Program-made: the position numbers and the translations under genes
Notes under the pieces: generated by a model
What the model was told of the DNA's origin: nothing
The model's input: only the letters and a program-made list of their open reading frames with translations
Database searches by the model: none
In this document: positions 53,512-63,529 of the stretch, in pieces
How positions within the stretch are numbered: position 1 is the first letter of the stretch
How the letters are laid out: each line of letters begins with the position of its first letter
From: Hordeum vulgare subsp. vulgare
Taxonomy: Eukaryota; Streptophyta; Magnoliopsida; Poales; Poaceae
NCBI RefSeq assembly: GCF_904849725.1
Contig: NC_058521.1
Location: forward strand, 345,758,638-345,822,637
Direction of reading: 5' to 3'
DNA: 64,000 nt

Positions 53512-55157
53512 TGCTACTTCAACAAAAGACTTTCCAACGGCGCCAGGAACGTGCTGAGAGGAGACTGTTCTTGTCTTGATACTTCTCAGCAATGGCATCA
53601 GGAATCCTTCTGCTATGGCTACGCCTTAAGGGACTTCCCAGGAAAATAAGCAAAGGATTTCCCCCGTGGCCTTGGAGCCTTGCGTTGGTGTTCCCTCGAA
53701 GCAGAAAGGGTGATGTAGCGCAGCGGTGGTAAGTATTTCCCTCAGTTTGAGAACCAAGGTATTGATCCAGTGAAGGAGTATCTCAAGTGCCTGCACAAAC
53801 ACAAAAAGCTTGCTCCCAACGCTATGAAGGGGTTGTCAATCCCTTATAGATTGTTCGCCAAGTGAGAACTGAAAGCAACAAAGTAACAAAGCAAAGTAAA
53901 AGCAAACGTGGAAATGATAGGTGTGAATAGACCAGGGGGGCGTAGTGTTACTAGTGCCTTCTCTCATGAAAGCAAGTAGATGGTGGGTGAACAAATTACT
54001 GTCGAGCAATTGATAGAACCGCGCAAAGTCGTGACGTCATCTATGGCAATGATTATATCTATAGGCATCACGTCCAAAACAAGTAGACCGATACTTTCTG
54101 CATCTACTACTATTACTCCACATGTCGACCGCTATCCAGCATGCATCTAGTGTGTCAAGTCAAAAAGAATAGAGTAACGCCTTAAGCAAGATGATATGAT
54201 GTAGATGGACAATCTCATATCTACGACAAAGCCCACCTTGTTACCCTTGATGGCAACTACACGATGTGTGCCTTGCTGCCCCTATTGTCACCGGGAAAGG
54301 TCACCACATGGTAAGAACCCAAAACCAAGCACTTCTCCCATTGCAAGAATCATAGATCTAGTTGGCCAAACAAAACCCAAGACTTGGAGAGACTTACCAG
54401 GATATCAACTCATGCAAATAAGAAATCAGCAAAGACTCAAATATATCTCATAGACAATCTGATCCAAAATACATAATTCATCGGATCTCGACAAACACAC
54501 CGCCAAAGAGGATTACATCGGATAGATCTCCATGAAGATCATGGAGAACTTTGTATTGAAGATCCAAGAGAGAGAAGAAGCCATCTAGCTACTAACTACG
54601 GACCCGTACGTCTGAAGTGAACTACTCACGAGTCATTGGAGGGGCGATGATGTTGATGTAGAAGCCCTCCAACTCCAAAGTCCCCTCCGGTAGGGCACCG
54701 GGAAGGGTCTCCAGATGAGATCTCGCGGAAACGGAAGCTTGCGGTGGCGGAAAAGTGTTTTCGTGGATTCCCTGATTTTTTTTCTGTATTTTAAGGAATA
54801 TATAGGTGAAGGAGCTAGGTGAGGGGGAGCCAGGGAGGCCACAAGCCTGCTAGCCGCCGCCCCCTGGTGGCGGCTAGGAGGCTTGTGGGCCCCCTGTAGC
54901 TCTCCTGGCTTGGCCCTCAAGCCCCCTGATCTTCTTCCGTTCGGGAAAAATTTATTTCGGGGATTTTATTCCGTTTGGACTCCATTCCAAAATCAGATCT
55001 GAAAAGAGCCAAAAACACAGAAAAACAGGAACTTGCACTTGGCACTGAATTAATAAGTTAGCTGCAAAAAAGATATAAAAGGTACATAAAACATCCAAAG
55101 ATGACAAGATAACAACATGAAGCCATCAAAAATTATAGATACGTTTGAGACGTATCA
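53512..55157 (-). repeat. 3' LTR of Gypsy D
   Basis: 1646 bp. On the minus strand it runs TGATACGTCTCAAACG to TTGTTGAAGTAGCA. A TATATATT promoter motif is at about 54797-54804. The stretch GTTCCTGGCGCCGTTGG inside it (53531-53547) looks like a primer site but is inside the LTR as defined by the target duplication. Confidence 0.8.
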
Positions 55158-56292
55158 AGCATCCCCAAGTTTAACTCCTGCTCGTCCTCGGGTAGGGAAG
55201 TGATAAAGAATGAATTTTTGATGCTTTCATGCTACCTAGCATAGATGTCCTTTGTAACTCCTCTTATGTGACGTGAATGTTCAGATCCATTAGATTCAAA
55301 ACAATAGTTTGCTATTGACGTGGAAACATTAATAATTCAAGCAAACTAGCATGGTAATCATGAACTTTCAAAATAACAAGGCCAAAAGAAAGTTATCCCT
55401 ACAAAAGCATATAGTATGGCTATGCTCTATCATCATTGCACAACGAATTTAAATCATGCACAACCCCAGTATTGGCCAAGTAATTGTTTTCAAACCTTTA
55501 CTTTGTCAAACCTTTTCAACTCTCACGCAATACATGAGCGTGAGCCATGGTTTTAGCACTATAAGTGGTGTGGAGTGTGGTGGAGGTTGCAAGACAAAAA
55601 AAAGGAGAAGATGGTCACATTGACTAGGCATATCAATGAGCTGTGGTGCTCATCAATAGATATCAATATGAATGAGTAGGGATTTCCATACAAATGATGC
55701 ACTAGAGCTAAGAGTATGTGAAAGCTCTTAAAGAAAACTAGTGGGTGTGCATCCAACTTGCTTTCTCACGAAGACCTAAGGCAATTTTGAGGAAGCCTAT
55801 CATTGGAATATACAAGCCAAGTTATATAATGAAAATTTCCCACTAGCTATATGGTGGTGATAAAACGAGAGACTCTCAATCATGAAGATCATGGTGCTTA
55901 ATATGCACAAGTGTGGAAAGGTGGTAGCATTGTCCCTTCCCTCTTTTTCTCTCATCATTTTTTGTGTGTGGGCTCTTTGGCCTCTTTTTTTAATATATTT
56001 TGGTGGGCATCTTTGGCCTCTTTTATTTCCTCACATGGGACAATGCTCCATCAATGATGATCATCACACTTTCAACTCAAAACTTAGAGCAACGATGACT
56101 CTATATGGAATGCCTTCGGTAGTGTACCGTGACAATGATCTAGCATGGCATAGACATTAATGGAAACATCATGCTAGCTATCTTACGATCATGCAATGGC
56201 AATGTAGAAGTGGTGGCACATGTCATGGTGGTAGTTGAATGGCAATATATCTCGGAATGACTTCGAAAAAGCCATATTAGGAAGGTATGGTG
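55158..56292 (-). other. 3' internal remnant of Gypsy D
   Basis: Non-coding. It starts at the LTR with the purine tract AAACTTGGGGATGCT (minus strand) and contains 'caatacatgagcgtgagccatgg', typical of the DNA upstream of 3' LTRs in this group. ORFs such as 55882-56160 are not retroviral proteins. Confidence 0.7.
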
Positions 56293-57176
56293 GCTGCCCC
56301 TATTGTCACTGGGAAAGGTCACCACACGGTAAGAACCCAAAACCAAGCACTTCTCCCATTGCAAGAATCATAGATCTAGTTGGCCAAACAAAACCCAAGA
56401 CTCAGAGAGACTTACAAGGATATCAAATCATGCAAATAAGAAATCAGCAAGGACTCAAATATATATCATAGATAATCTGATCACAAATCCACAATTCATC
56501 GGATCTCGACAAACACACCGCCAAAGAGGATTACATCGGATAGATCTCCATGAAGATCATGGAGAACTTTGTATTGGAGATCCAAGAGAGAGAAGAAGCC
56601 ATCTAGCTACTAACTACCGACCCGTAGGTCTGAAGTGAACAACTCACGAGTCATTGGAGGGGCGATGATGTTGATGTAGAAGCCCTCCAACTCCAAAGTC
56701 CCCTCCGCCAGGGCACCGGGAAGGGTCTCCACATGAGATCTCGTGGAAACGGAAGCTTGCGGCGGCGGAAAAGTGTTTTCGTGGATTCCCTGACTTTTTT
56801 CTGTATTTTCGGGAATATATAGGCAAAAGAGCTAGGTTAGGGGGGCGCCAGGGAGGCCACAAGCCTGCTAGCCGCCGCCCCCTCGTGGCGGCTAGGGGGC
56901 TTGTGGGCCCCCTGTAGCTCTCCTGGCTTGGCCCTCAAGCCCCCTGATCTTCTTCCGTTCGGGAAAAATTTATTTCGGGGATTTTATTCCGTTTGGACCC
57001 CGTTCCAAAATCAGATCTGAAAAGAGCCAAAAACACAGAAAAAACAGGAACAGGCACTTGGCACTAAATTAATAAGTTAGTCCCAAAAAAGATATAAAAG
57101 GTACATAAAACATCCAAAGATGACAAGATAACAACATGAAACCATCAAAAATTATAGATACGTTTGAGACGTATCA
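56293..57176 (-). repeat. Truncated 5' LTR of Gypsy D
   Basis: It corresponds to 54275-55157 of the 3' LTR. It breaks at 56293, where the word GCTG is shared with the adjoining internal DNA, consistent with a microhomology-mediated deletion. Confidence 0.8.
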
Positions 57177-57469
57177 CCCTGCACCACCACCGGCCTGGTC
57201 CCCCACGCCCCTCCTCCCCGCGCCCTATCCCCGCCTGACGCCCCTGCCTGCCCTGGCGCCACACTGGCCAGGCCCCCATTGCCCCGGCGCCAACTGCCCC
57301 TGCAGGTGAGCTTTTTTTTTTCTTTTTTGGCTTTATTTCCTATTTTTTCTTTTAAATTAGATAGTTAGTTTATTTTCTATTTTTCTGTTAAATTGGATAG
57401 TTAGTGTTTTTTCTGTTTTTTATGTTAAATTAGATAGTTAGTTTATTAGGTAGAAAAAGTAGATAGAAA

Positions 57470-57727: not shown

Positions 57728-58258
57728 ACCCCGACCCCCGGCCCGCGCCGCCGACGCCCGACGCCAACAACCCCCGACACCACTGACACCCGACACCTGA
57801 CGCCCGACACCACTGACCCCCAACCCCGACTCCCGACTCCACTAACCCCGACCCCAGACGCCCGACACCATTGACCCTCGACTCCCAACGCCACTGACCC
57901 TCGACCACCGACCCCCGACGCCCGACCCCTCACCCCTGACCCCCGACGCCACTGACCCTCGACCCCCGACCCCCGACGCCCGACCCCTGACCCCGGACCC
58001 CCGACGCCACTGACCCTCAACCCCCGACCCCCAACCCCCTACCCTCGACCCCCGACGCCACTAAACCCCAACCCCCGACCCCCGACACCTCTTCGGCCTC
58101 TTGTTGACCGAAAAGACCCTAACCACCGATGCTAGTGAACCTCGACCCCCGACGACACTGACCCTCGACCACCGACGCAACTAACCCCCGACCCCCGTGG
58201 CCACCGACACCCGACACCACCGACCCTCGACACCACTAGGCCCCGACCCCGACACCTC
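57728..58258 (+). repeat. C-rich CCCGAC minisatellite in the CACTA leader intron
   Basis: About 530 bp of irregular repeats built from CCCCGACCC, GACGCCACTGACC and GACACC words. The minus strand carries repeated GGGGGTCGGGGGTC, which could form G-quadruplexes. Confidence 0.8.
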
Positions 58259-58567
58259 TTCTGCCTACTATTGAACAAGAAGGTGCTTCTCGGCCTTCTA
58301 GAGGCTGACGGGGTCATAGTTTTGTAAATTATGAGTTAGGTCATATATTTTCCGATTATGTCAATTATAAAAACATCATATTTGTATTGATCGGGTGAAT
58401 TTAAATGTGCAGTTGTTCGACGACCTCCACGTGCGTTGGACGAGCTCCGCCCCTGCGTTTGTTGGTGAGCACAAATGACTTCTCCTCCTACCCCCTTAAT
58501 TTGCTCTGTTCCGGTCTTCATGCCGATGAAACTTGCTAGCTATATGTTTCTTCAATCATGACTATGC

Positions 58568-58607: not shown

Positions 58608-58625
58608 TTTCGGAAGGGCGACATC

Positions 58626-58655
58626 TATAAATATGCATGTCTTTGCATATTTATA
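58626..58655 (+). promoter_or_regulatory. Perfect palindrome containing a TATA box
   Basis: TATAAATATGCA and its exact inverse TGCATATTTATA are separated by 6 bp (TGTCTT). The left arm contains TATAAATA, so it could act as a promoter on either strand. It lies about 45 bp upstream of the large inverted repeat and 300 bp upstream of the transposase ATG. Confidence 0.55.
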
Positions 58656-58699
58656 ACATCCATCCTTTCGAATTGTCCAACATTATCCATGGACAGCGT

Positions 58700-58909
58700 G
58701 AGTATGTATAGATTGGGTTCGTTTTCCCGTATGCTGTGCTCCGGATCCAATGTGGAATTTCGTCAGTGCCTCCCTGTTGTTCTCCAGGTACACATGCTCT
58801 CTAGGTATTGCCGAGACGTGTATCAGGAGAACAGCGGGGAGGTGCTGCCGAAATTCTGCGTCGCATCTGGAGCATAGCATGGGAAAACGAACCCAATCTA
58901 CACATACTC
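58700..58909 (+). ncRNA. Long imperfect inverted repeat (hairpin) in the CACTA transposase leader
   Basis: Arms 58700-58793 and 58818-58909 are near-complements with a ~24 nt loop. By hand alignment about 77 positions form Watson-Crick pairs and 10 more form G:U pairs in the plus-strand RNA, with 5 mismatches and one 2 nt bulge. Because of this symmetry, short ORFs on both strands (58689-58877 and 58683-58880) encode similar peptides, which is an artefact. It could be processed to small RNAs, control splicing or translation of the transposase RNA, or be structural DNA. Whether it is transcribed is unknown; the ncRNA label is tentative. Confidence 0.55.
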
Positions 58910-58961
58910 GGGTGGGATTAGGACATATCTTTACCTATTAGCGTGTAGGTTGCTAGGCAAC

Positions 58962-61485
58962 ATGAGTGATCGTGCTTGGATGTAAAATGGTCACCCTAGT
59001 CGGAAAGACATGACCCATGAATGGTTAACAAAAACCAGGGGGTTTGTGAGAGCCGCATTTGCAAATGGCCAGCAAAAAACATGGTGCCCCTGTCCCAACT
59101 GCTACAACTGGAAAAAAGTAGTTAGAGTTTGAAATGGGTAAACACCTGTAGAAGTGGGGTTTTACGCCAAATTATACGGTGTGGACTTTTCATGGTGAGT
59201 GTGACCAACGTGCCAGAGCTGAGGTGATTCGTCGTCGCACCGACTAGCATGGTACCGGGATCGAAGACATGGCGCAAGACTTTGATGATGCTCGGGATTC
59301 GGATGATGAGATGGAGGAATCTGCAAAGGACTTCTATGAAATGTTGGAGTCTTCAAAAGGTCCTCTCCACGAGCAGACTGAGCTTTGTCAGCTGGATGCC
59401 ATCGCGCAAGTAATGGCTCTGAAGGCTCAATTCAAACTAGGCAGAGAATGCTACGCCGCGATGATGACGATATTTGGACGCTTTCTGCTCAAAGGCCATG
59501 TACTGCCTGCAAACGTGTACTAGTCAGAGAAAATCCTTCGTGTACTTAAGATGCCCTATGAGAAGATACATGCCTGTGAGAATGGATGTGCCTTATTTAG
59601 GCTTGAGTATGCGGCCTTGAACTATTGCCCCATTTGCAATTCTTCCAGGTATATTGTGGTAGACAACGGTATGGGTGAGAAGAATCAGACCAAAATACCC
59701 ATTTGTGTTCTTCGGTATCTGCTAATCGTACCAAGACTTCAACGTCTTTTCATGGTCGAAGAGACGGCCAGACAGATGACATGTCACAAATTGGCAAAAG
59801 AACCGAACTAGATGCGGATGGGAACAAGATGCTGGTACACACTTCAGATTGTTTTGCGTGGAGGCACTTCGATGCATTACATAAGGATAAATCGGAAGAT
59901 CCAAGGCATCCTAGAGTTGTCATCAGCACGGATGGGTTCGTTGTGTATGGTATGACGACAGCACAATACAGTTGTTGGCCTGTATTTGTCATTCCACTCA
60001 ATCTCCCACCCGGAGAGATTATGAAAAGAAAGAACATTTTCCTCACATTGATAATTCCAGGGCCCAACTACCGGGGAAGAATGTGAATGTGTACATGCAT
60101 CCGCTTAAGGATGAGTTGCAAGAACCCTGGGATAATGGGATTAAGACCTACGATGCCGCTACCAAAACAAATTTCAAAATGCATGTGTGGTACATGTACT
60201 CGACGCATTATTATCCGGCGTTTGCGCTATTCGCTGGCAGGTGTGTGCATGGAAGGTTCCCGTGCACCACATGCAAGGCATCTCTTCAGTTTCGTTGGTT
60301 GCAGGCTGGTCACAAGTTTTCTTGCTTCGACATGAATAGATAGTTCCTGGATCCTGACCGTAAGTTCAGAAAAGACAAGAAGAATTTCATCAAAGGTAGA
60401 GTTGTCAAAAACACTACACCAGCTACGTTGACAGGCCAACAGACCCTTGATCAGTTAAACGCTCTCGAGCCTGATCCTTTGCATCCAGGGTACTTCAAAG
60501 GGTAAAATACGGAACACGTCAGGACTCACAAGTCATGCTTATGGGATCTGCCTTAGTTCAAAGACCTCCTTTGCCCACACAACATCAACATTATGCACAC
60601 TGAAAAGAATATTGTGCAGTCCATTTTTGGTACATTGTTCGGCATAGAGGGGAAGTCAAAAGATAATCCTAAGGATAGAATTGACCTGGAGGCTCTATGT
60701 GATAGACCGTTGCAAAACTTGCGACAATGGAAAGGAAAGCAAAGCATAGCGAAGCCAAAGGCATGGTTCAATCTTGAAAGGCCAGCTATGAGGGAAATGC
60801 TATTGTGGGTGAAAATGCGGTTGATGTTCCCCGATGGGTATGCTACGAATCTAAATAGGGGAGAGAGTCTTCAGAAATTGAAAATATTTGGTCTCAAGAG
60901 TCATGATTGGCACATATGGATTGAGCGGGTAATGCCGGTGATGTTGCGTGGCTTTATTCCTGAGGATGAATGGCTAGTACTGGCAGAGCTGAGCTATTTC
61001 GTCCATTCTCTTTGTGACAAAGAACTATCGCCTGGCGTGCTAGATGAAATGGAAGAGTTGGTGGCCGAGTTGATCTGCAAATTAGAAAAAACATTCCATC
61101 GGGCTTCTTTAATCCAATGCAGCATTTGATTTTGGATCTCGCGATCGAGGCATGATTGGGGGTGCCCGTTCAAAATCGATGGTGCTACTCAACTGAGAGG
61201 ATGCAGAAGACGCTTCGAGCTAAATGTAAAAATAAACGTAGAATTCAAGCATCGATGGCCGAGGCATTCATTACTGAGGAGGCAGCAAACTTTGTGACAG
61301 TACACTACGAAGCCAAAAATCATCATTTGCATAACCCGAAGCCTCGGTACAATGATGGCTATCCAAAAAAGGTCGATCCAATTTTAGCCTATTCAAAGGG
61401 AAACTCGCACCATCCGGTGCTTCGAAAGGGAATTCATCGGATGTCGAAGAATGTCGGACCATTTCATTGTATATCTTCACCAACC
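58962..61485 (+). pseudogene. CACTA TNP2-type transposase pseudogene
   Basis: The ATG (58962) opens a transposase-associated N-terminal domain: MSDRAWM, a stop (TAA 58983-58985), then KDMTHEWLTKTRGFV and CPCPNCYNW. After an acidic stretch (59269-59523) and a stop (TAG 59521) comes LNYCPICNSSRY, the zinc-ribbon-like motif, and PRLQRLFMVEETARQM. TNP2 core motifs follow in two further frames: WRHFDALH, VISTDGFVVYG, SCWPVFVIPLNLPP, then NVYMHPLKDELQEPW and CTTCKASLQF. Stops at 60341, 60503 and 60554 precede an intact 179-codon piece (60593-61129). A DUF4218-like tail (61156-61485) ends it. TNP2 cuts and joins the element ends. At least four stops and three frameshifts make it dead. Confidence 0.9.
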
Positions 61486-63529
61486 TAACAGAAGTGCGGC
61501 CGTAAATAGTAAGTTCTCGGTAAATTATTGATCCGCAACTTCTAATTCCTTTGAACTACTCTTATTCCCGGATATTTGACATAGTCGATAAGTTGCCGAA
61601 TTCTCGGATGGAGCGGTCATCGAAAAGGATTCCGTCGAAGAGTATGAGCTTCTCGCAAAGCATGGAGGCGACTATACTGGTTTCATCTCTTGGTTCAAAC
61701 AAAGGGTAATTAATTACCATTAATGGGCCATTTGATTTCTTGGTCTAATTTGCGGCTAATGCATCCATTCTTTCATATTAAACTTGTAGGCTGATGCAGA
61801 GTCTATGAACGCCGAGTTGAGACAAGTCGCTAATGGTTTTGACTATAAGGTCCATTCATTTGACAAATACAACATCAACGGGTATCACTTTCGTACCTTT
61901 GGCGAAGAGCTATCTATGCCCGACGTAAAGACTAAAATTGTTCTGTCTCTACTAGTTATTGTACTAATCGGTGTTGTCTCATTTGTAGACCTACTACAAA
62001 TGTGAGGAGGGATACGAGGAGGACACGGTGAAGGTTGTCGAAACCGAATGTGGCCGCCCACTTCAAAACTTTCGGCACGAAGCTCGGGTGCAGGCTGTTT
62101 GAGACTACTATGCCCCGCGGCGTATTAGGAAGGACAAGGCGAAGTGCCGCGATTCTAAGATGGAGAAGGAACATTACATGAAGGTAATTACATATTATTA
62201 AGGCCTGTAGTTAGTTTCCTTGATCTGATTCTTACGCGTTGTGCTCAAATTTATCTTTATTAACTTAGGTGCCCCCGAGATGGTGTGCGGATAAGATGGA
62301 TTGTTGGGAGGCCTTGGTGGATCAGTGGTGCTCCGAAACGTGGGAGGCCAGCCACAACAAAGCCAAGGAGAGGCATGGCAAAATGGTTGGTGTGTCACAC
62401 CATCAAGGTAGCGTCAACTTAATTCAATTTGGCGAGAACTGGGTATGTGGTTTTCTTCATGCCTCATGCAATTCATTCTTAATGCTATCTTGAGCCCTTT
62501 ACTAATACATTTTCCCTCTCTCTCTCACTTTTAGGCCCGTCACAATGAGACGGAGGTGCCACAGATGTACGACCTGTATGCGATGGCTCATACTGCCTTG
62601 TACAAGAAGGTCAAGACATTCTCTGAGTCTGACCTGAGCATCCAGAAAACTTCGCCAACATCTCCTCCCACCACAAGCTCGTGAAGTATAGAGATCACGG
62701 GAAGGCGAGGAAAGGGGAGGACTTTAACTCGAGCGAGGGGCCTATTGATCCAGAGCTGGTGATGATAGCTGGCAACGGGAGGCCCCATGGCTCGATCGCC
62801 ATTGGAGACGGCCTTATACGTTGTCCTAGCACTCTTCGTCAGATAAAGGCATGCCAAACGAGCTCCTGTCTTGAGATAACACCTCGTCCATGGCCAGTCG
62901 AGCTCGCCATCGAGGTTAGTATAATGGACTCAACTATCTTTCCGCATTATGTTGTGCGTGGGAACCAATATGATTACAATGCTAACAATGAGTTGTGTTA
63001 CAGGCTGCTATTCTGAAAGAGAGAGAGGCAATGCATGCGCTTTTGGTGGAGAAGGATAAGGAGATGAAGGAGCTGGAGGAGAGGACGACTATATTGGTGG
63101 AGGCGGAGAGGGCACTGAATAATGCGTCTAACAGGGCCATGTACGAGCTCTTCGTGGTAAGTTTCTTCTTCATATTATTTGAAATCTTGCATTTTACTGT
63201 CCTTTTCACTAATAACTAAAAAGTTTGACTTGTCGAAACCAAATGTACAATCTATGTGCGAGAAGGCCAACCACGTCCCTCCGGCGATGACAGTCATTAA
63301 CATGGCGAGGACGGTGAGTTTCATTTCAATGGAGTGATCTCAAGAGTGTCATCATGCTAACGACACATTGCAAACGATGTTTGGTGCAGAATATCTCCCG
63401 AAATGAATCGCACGACCCTTCTACAGTGGAGCCTTCTCCATGGCAGCCTTGTCCAGGTGAAACAAGCCAGAGCCACCGTGCTTCACCGCCGTGATGACGA
63501 TAATGGTATCTTATTTCTAGTATTTTGCT

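Follow-up and report, generated by a model that had tools for sequence, protein, structure and literature searches.

Hairpins carried by plant transposons are described in several systems. In rice, the miR820 precursor is a foldback within CACTA DNA transposons that spreads with the element; it is directed against OsDRM2, which it resembles and from which it possibly arose, and five miR820 copies are reported for Nipponbare (PMC3459959). In maize, 32.52% of CACTA elements are reported to contain a miRNA-like region (LP-hairpin); LP-hairpins have been linked to small RNAs, are 25 nt long in the median and, within CACTA elements, are biased towards the terminal repeats (PMC10760457). Wheat MITEs of the Stowaway/Tourist type are described as forming stable read-through RNA hairpins that are matched mainly by 21-nt RNAs (PMC2996936). 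The barley hairpin analysed here is, like pre-miR820, a foldback inside a CACTA element, but it lies in the transposase leader, has no sequence kinship with miR820 that we could find, contains an arm 27-mer with >3000 occurrences as against the five miR820 copies, and is less conserved in sequence than in fold. Like the maize LP-hairpins it is a local hairpin of a transposable element; it differs from them as a single unit of 210 nt whose internal position is fixed and whose sense fold is supported by a comparison of lineages. With MITEs it shares the near-perfect palindromic stem but not the status of an independent mobile unit.

The hairpin was studied in a 64,000-nt stretch of barley DNA (the window). 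A first, sequence-only reading had described a near-perfect hairpin of 210 bp upstream of a CACTA transposase start and proposed folding both RNAs, and the folds confirm it. Plus-strand RNA of positions 58690-58920 has a minimum free energy (MFE) of -153.5 kcal/mol (RNAfold, z -16.7), and minus-strand RNA of the same stretch folds less well (-126.7 kcal/mol, z -14.9); 0/200 shuffles were as low for either strand. The 5' arm (58700..58791, plus strand) and the 3' arm (58818..58909, plus strand), delimited by the fold and by arm complementarity, enclose a loop with imperfect loop-proximal pairing, placed from the fold at 58792..58817 (plus strand). The arm ends (58700-58728 and 58881-58909) are 97% complementary across the first 29 nt, and the plus-strand structure of 58690-58920 contains 99 pairs, 86 Watson-Crick and 13 G:U. 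Transition differences between the arms within 58700-58791 comprise 10 G:U and 2 A:C oppositions, which reproduces the earlier count of compatible and incompatible sites; a third A:C opposition lies closer to the loop, at 58794. The stem-loop precursor expected of a plant MIRNA gene is present.

The hairpin precedes a degenerate tnp2-type transposase gene recognised by domain matches (58962..61488, plus strand). This gene retains two pieces of PF02992 (59703-60083 and 59972-60340, plus strand; E 2.4e-24 and 6.9e-21) and one of DUF4218 (61156-61485, plus strand; E 1e-08), that is, the tnp2-type transposase characteristic of CACTA (En/Spm) elements; its start reads M-S-D-R-A-W-M, followed by TAA as the eighth codon. 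CACTA terminal repeats were found in a complete relative on contig C1 (L163+L164), which is 12,870 bp long and has 32-bp terminal inverted repeats (94%) starting CACTAC, CACTACTGG... The triplets beside this sole complete relative, AGG and ATG, are non-identical, and the 3-bp target-site duplication is not clean. Barley is reported to contain very many copies of the Triticeae CACTA families Balduin and Caspar; Balduin has ~6021 copies and a reference of 11,740 bp (PMC5738225), as against 12,870 bp for the complete relative. On grounds of size, copy number and abundance in barley, the hairpin family may be DTC_Balduin (PMC5738225).

Upstream of the hairpin, a TATA-box-like TATAAATA (58626..58633, plus strand; identified from sequence) sits within a short near-palindrome. 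It is almost invariant across 30 aligned copies, and an exact 36-mer around it, in the form of lineage A (defined below), has 1019+1036 genome occurrences. By inference, a transcription start ~30 nt past the TATA box would fall ~40 nt ahead of the hairpin. A second short inverted repeat, TATAAATATGCA ... TGCATATTTATA, flanks the TATA box (window 58609-58672). Farther upstream, the CACTA 5' region has C-rich tandem repeats, placed at 57729..58260 (plus strand) by repeat comparison. The element's 5' part also has, within 54275-57178, two direct repeats at a distance of 2018 bp that end in GAGACGTATCA and are 95-98% alike in two pieces; they resemble an inserted element of the LTR type.

Between the end of the hairpin and the tnp2-type start codon at 58962 lie 52 nt. 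This spacing is private to the window copy, the only one of 40 copies without ~87 nt between hairpin and ATG; L147, L159 and L162 have different losses in that interval. Comparison with the other copies places the junction at 58946..58953 (plus strand), and the stretch absent there ends in CCCCCATAG in lineage A or in the pyrimidine-rich TCTGTCTTTAG in lineage B. Its edges are intron-like (AG/GTTGC ... CCCCCATAG/GTAGC, slashes marking the boundaries), and it is a candidate for a short intron that was lost or for a deletion between imperfect repeats. We also considered the hairpin itself as an intron, via a GT donor at 58698 (CAGC/GTGAGT). This idea was dropped because the family has CC at that place, the GT being a mutation private to the window copy. 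The hairpin also forms when 662 nt of leader plus gene are folded together, and the order of TATA box upstream and ATG downstream of it is the same in lineages A and B.

Copies were sought in a genome assembly of 4.21 Gb and 180 contigs, seven of them chromosome-sized among the loci listed. A 27-mer taken from the 5' arm, with one two-fold position, has 1630+1632 = 3262 exact matches, and the reversed 27-mer, used as a control, has 0 in the same assembly. Of 1214 candidates from a hairpin similarity search, 40 were scored; 39 align across all 210 bases and one across 209. These hairpin-chosen copies share the upstream flank in 40/40 cases and the transposase start in 39/40, the exception being L162, where the hairpin and a short following stretch are joined to other gene-region sequence of the element, without the transposase start. 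For a sample independent of the hairpin, the upstream flank served as query; 40 of 526 candidates were scored, and the first 20 following the query copy itself were taken. The hairpin is present in 19/20 of them, including L212, whose 3' arm lacks 33 nt; the one exception, L207, is interrupted ~25 nt into the hairpin. That the hairpin might be absent from most family members, an objection the sequence-only reading had raised against its own idea, is contradicted by this sample. The hairpin is a fixed component of the transposase-gene 5' leader in a high-copy barley CACTA family.

The same samples bear on the origin of the structure. In size and near-perfect symmetry it is MITE-like, and one could take it for an independent MITE that inserted by chance into a CACTA element. 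However, the copies examined show a constant transposon context in place of independent insertion with an own target-site duplication: the upstream flank and the transposase start are constant as counted above, the flank-chosen carriers have the hairpin in the same place, and one position is common to both lineages. We regard such an origin as scarcely credible. Nor, in the loci compared, is it a general feature of CACTA leaders. Among 30 loci with PF13963 (the 30 best among 150 scored matches from 18949 candidates, covering only a handful of other CACTA groups), scanned with 1.5 kb on each side, 0/30 had a comparable hairpin, as against recovery in 40/40 copies by a slightly stricter filter in the positive control. 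Weak palindromes of 62-116 nt, 67-74% complementary, were seen in 3/30 of these loci (L179 2514-2625 on the gene side, L190 82-143 and L192 1011-1126 both upstream).

The sequence-only reading had also hinted that the sense RNA fold has been kept, and the family supports this, through its consensus and strand asymmetry and through the fixed changes given below. RNA of the plus strand folds better than that of the minus strand in 40/40 copies (-139.6 to -169.4 versus -116.5 to -147.2). The family consensus contains 9 G:U versus 1 A:C oppositions (one-sided binomial test, P-value 0.011), and its plus-minus MFE difference of -31.3 is equalled by 1/400 simulated neutrally diverged palindromes (palindromes randomly diverged by an equal number of changes; difference mean 0.3, sd 11.4). 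L264, an old copy with deletions, has near-zero strand asymmetry (-118.5/-114.5). In the old copies L263 and L264, CTCTGC in the 5' arm pairs with GCAGAG; the corresponding place in lineages A and B holds a G:G mismatch, which hints that the ancestral stem was more perfect. A function of the palindrome at the DNA level, as a transposase-binding or cruciform site, could be suggested by the adjoining C-rich repeat region. Yet DNA symmetry would not favour G:U over A:C oppositions, and the hairpin of the complete relative is ~2.3 kb away from the element's 5' end; we consider this function very improbable.

Changes fixed between two lineages are the best evidence on the fold. Lineage A consists of the 19 flank-chosen copies left after the interrupted L207 was dropped, and lineage B of 18/20 copies with TTCG instead of TTTG among the 27-mer matches listed on C1, excluding L249 (of another type) and L260 (broken downstream). 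The hairpins of A and B differ at 11/211 sites and by one indel, with 9 transitions and 2 transversions. All of the fixed transitions (9/9) fall at paired sites, 8 in the main stem and 1 loop-proximal, and all swap Watson-Crick and G:U pairs on the plus strand, none yielding A:C (two-sided binomial test, P-value 0.004 for 9 and 0.008 for 8; the test covers 9 events in one lineage pair of one genome). Differences were listed across the entire hairpin and none lies at an unpaired site; hence the 9/9 count was not produced by omitting breaks. Transitions between A and B in the flanks are strand-symmetric, in small numbers (C/T 6, A/G 7), and thus show no sign of a general mutation process with strand bias. 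The source consensus sequences of the two lineages have MFEs of -162.1 and -170.4.

Other groups of copies were compared in the same way. An 11-copy group near the window copy, selected by similarity to it, is separated from A by 2 and from B by 7 paired transitions, all of which retain pairing; one further difference, at site 88, is unpaired. A group of 17 copies (L226-L242) picked by similarity to L144 was not treated as a lineage, and in this biased pick one consensus change breaks a pair (C:A at sites 22/191). A third lineage, sought with two patterns and 8 copies, gave only old single copies or A/B variants and no replicate.

Divergence between A and B is uneven along the leader. We found 0 differences in the 59 nt before the hairpin, 1/56 nt after it and then 16 in the following 80, and 12/79 differing sites at the gene start. 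Expressed per segment, the 59 nt before the hairpin are identical, the hairpin is 5% different, the intron-like stretch 20% and the gene start 15%. The low divergence of promoter and hairpin relative to the gene could reflect exchange of a 5' module by recombination between CACTA lineages. With such an exchange the overall similarity proves less, and the pair-keeping test is unaffected.

The decay of inserted copies serves as a control for these fixed changes. Transitions scattered within the A and B sets keep or break pairs in a ratio of 40:30 (P-value 0.28, not different from even), those seen once in 35:23 (P-value 0.15) and variants in at least 2 copies in 5:7. Among the 40 copies, unfixed variants stand at 7:7 (seen once), 5:6 (2-4 copies) and 2:2 (at least 5 copies). 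Fixed transitions differ from the scattered ones (Fisher test, two-sided, P-value 0.011 for 9:0 or 0.02 for 8:0) and from the once-seen ones (Fisher test, P-value 0.023 or 0.043, respectively). The idea that arms in other copies might diverge neutrally thus holds for inserted copies and fails for the fixed lineage changes, 9/9 of which keep pairing. The sequence-only reading had also proposed comparing copies for compensatory changes: in the 40 copies no double change keeps a pair (2 doubles, both breaking) and in the A sample 1 keeps and 1 breaks it.

Dead copies decay mostly at CG/CHG sites. In A copies, mutation reaches 4.4% at CG and 5.0% at CHG sites of the hairpin, and 3.5% and 5.6% at those of the gene start. 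Deviation from the consensus in these copies is 2.0% in the hairpin, 0.96% in the sequence after it and 1.4% at the gene start, and the higher value of the hairpin can be explained by its many CG/CHG sites. No hairpin-specific excess of CHH transitions was found in inserted copies (5/978 cells versus 4/813 and 3/1005); hence, there is no mutational sign of small-RNA-directed methylation.

All this could be read as the history of a passive passenger, a single inverted duplication in a successful source element that was carried along as the element multiplied and now decays neutrally, with chance or an old mutational asymmetry behind the G:U excess. The pairing-blind decay of inserted copies, the unbiased shared unfixed variants and a hairpin deviation that fits its CG/CHG content agree with such a history. 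However, the fixed transitions and the 9:1 consensus oppositions favour the sense fold, the flank transitions are strand-symmetric, and the source consensus MFEs have remained low; we think this history rather unlikely. From the aligned copies, active lineages seem to maintain the fold rather than the sequence, and the changes scattered among copies appear unbiased.

A trans-acting locus similar to miR820 would yield one dominant 21-24 nt RNA that represses a gene of the host, possibly one with a role in silencing. It has a precedent in the rice CACTA family, whose pre-miR820 resembles OsDRM2, and retention of the sense-strand fold agrees with it. The longest stretch free of A-B change, 43 nt at sites 115-157 and mostly in the 3' arm, might be taken for a conserved guide; yet by our estimate such a run is ordinary for ~12 changes in 212 nt, and A-B change is denser in the hairpin (11/211) than in its immediate flanks (0/59 and 1/56). 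Database searches also speak against such a locus. Seven translated frames of the hairpin region, searched for gene-derived arms, match no Pfam family above the cut-off (two sub-cut-off matches, E 0.12 and 0.23), and Rfam at the gathering score gives 0 matches within the window. Five sub-threshold Rfam matches on L163 6850-7450 represent four miRNA families and one snoRNA, the best being mir-942 with 30.7 bits versus a gathering score of 100. No plant paper, by title, was found for the arm oligomers in the main texts of open papers. In searches of the host genome the scored places are taken up by the thousands of transposon copies, which would hide weak matches to a host gene. Taken together, we hold a locus of the miR820 kind to be unlikely.

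Further searches concerned the surroundings of the family. Hairpin 21-mers match the rest of the complete element at best in 16 and 15 of 21 positions, no better than shuffled controls (15-17), which gives no support to self-targets. Plasmids and phages gave no hairpin match, and among the compared loci from viral or bacterial contigs chosen by 17-mer only L005 matched (blastn, E 1e-3, 37 nt, 86%). Protein relatives of the transposase in public sets number 213 at E <= 0.001, without DNA context. No printed account of the leader hairpin was found in the open papers searched, and the word hairpin occurs 0 times in PMC4158355, on CACTA transposase exons.

The reading we prefer, tentatively and at a little under an even chance, is that the leader hairpin is a cis-acting, Dicer-accessible element of the transposase gene. 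A stem of such stability would be expected to block ribosome scanning and to serve as a Dicer substrate. Provided that transcription passes through the hairpin, the sense transcript of the transposase gene would fold into a nearly continuous stem of ~95 bp. Such a stem would hinder ribosome scanning and lower transposase expression, a throttling that would amount to self-limitation of dosage. It may also be cut as a Dicer-like substrate, and the 21-24 nt RNAs expected as products may feed back on the CACTA family. The hairpin sequence changes faster than its immediate flanks while sense pairing is kept, as expected if the fold and not a guide sequence is used. Apparent selection on fold rather than sequence makes a cis role, or one for which any siRNA would do, preferable to a sequence-specific miRNA.

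Transposon hairpins may be passengers, self-silencing triggers or adaptive parts. It is possible, though we put it forward with reserve, that selection acting on the transcript of a DNA transposon family has preserved a Dicer-sized hairpin in its transposase leader as a brake or a small-RNA source. With similar caution, the conserved trait might be the RNA fold and not the sequence, fixed changes keeping sense pairing and dead copies decaying randomly. This first comparison of active lineages with dead copies favours, on few events, retention of the fold. Thousands of dead copies form a built-in neutral control, and one genome can test whether active lineages retain an RNA fold.
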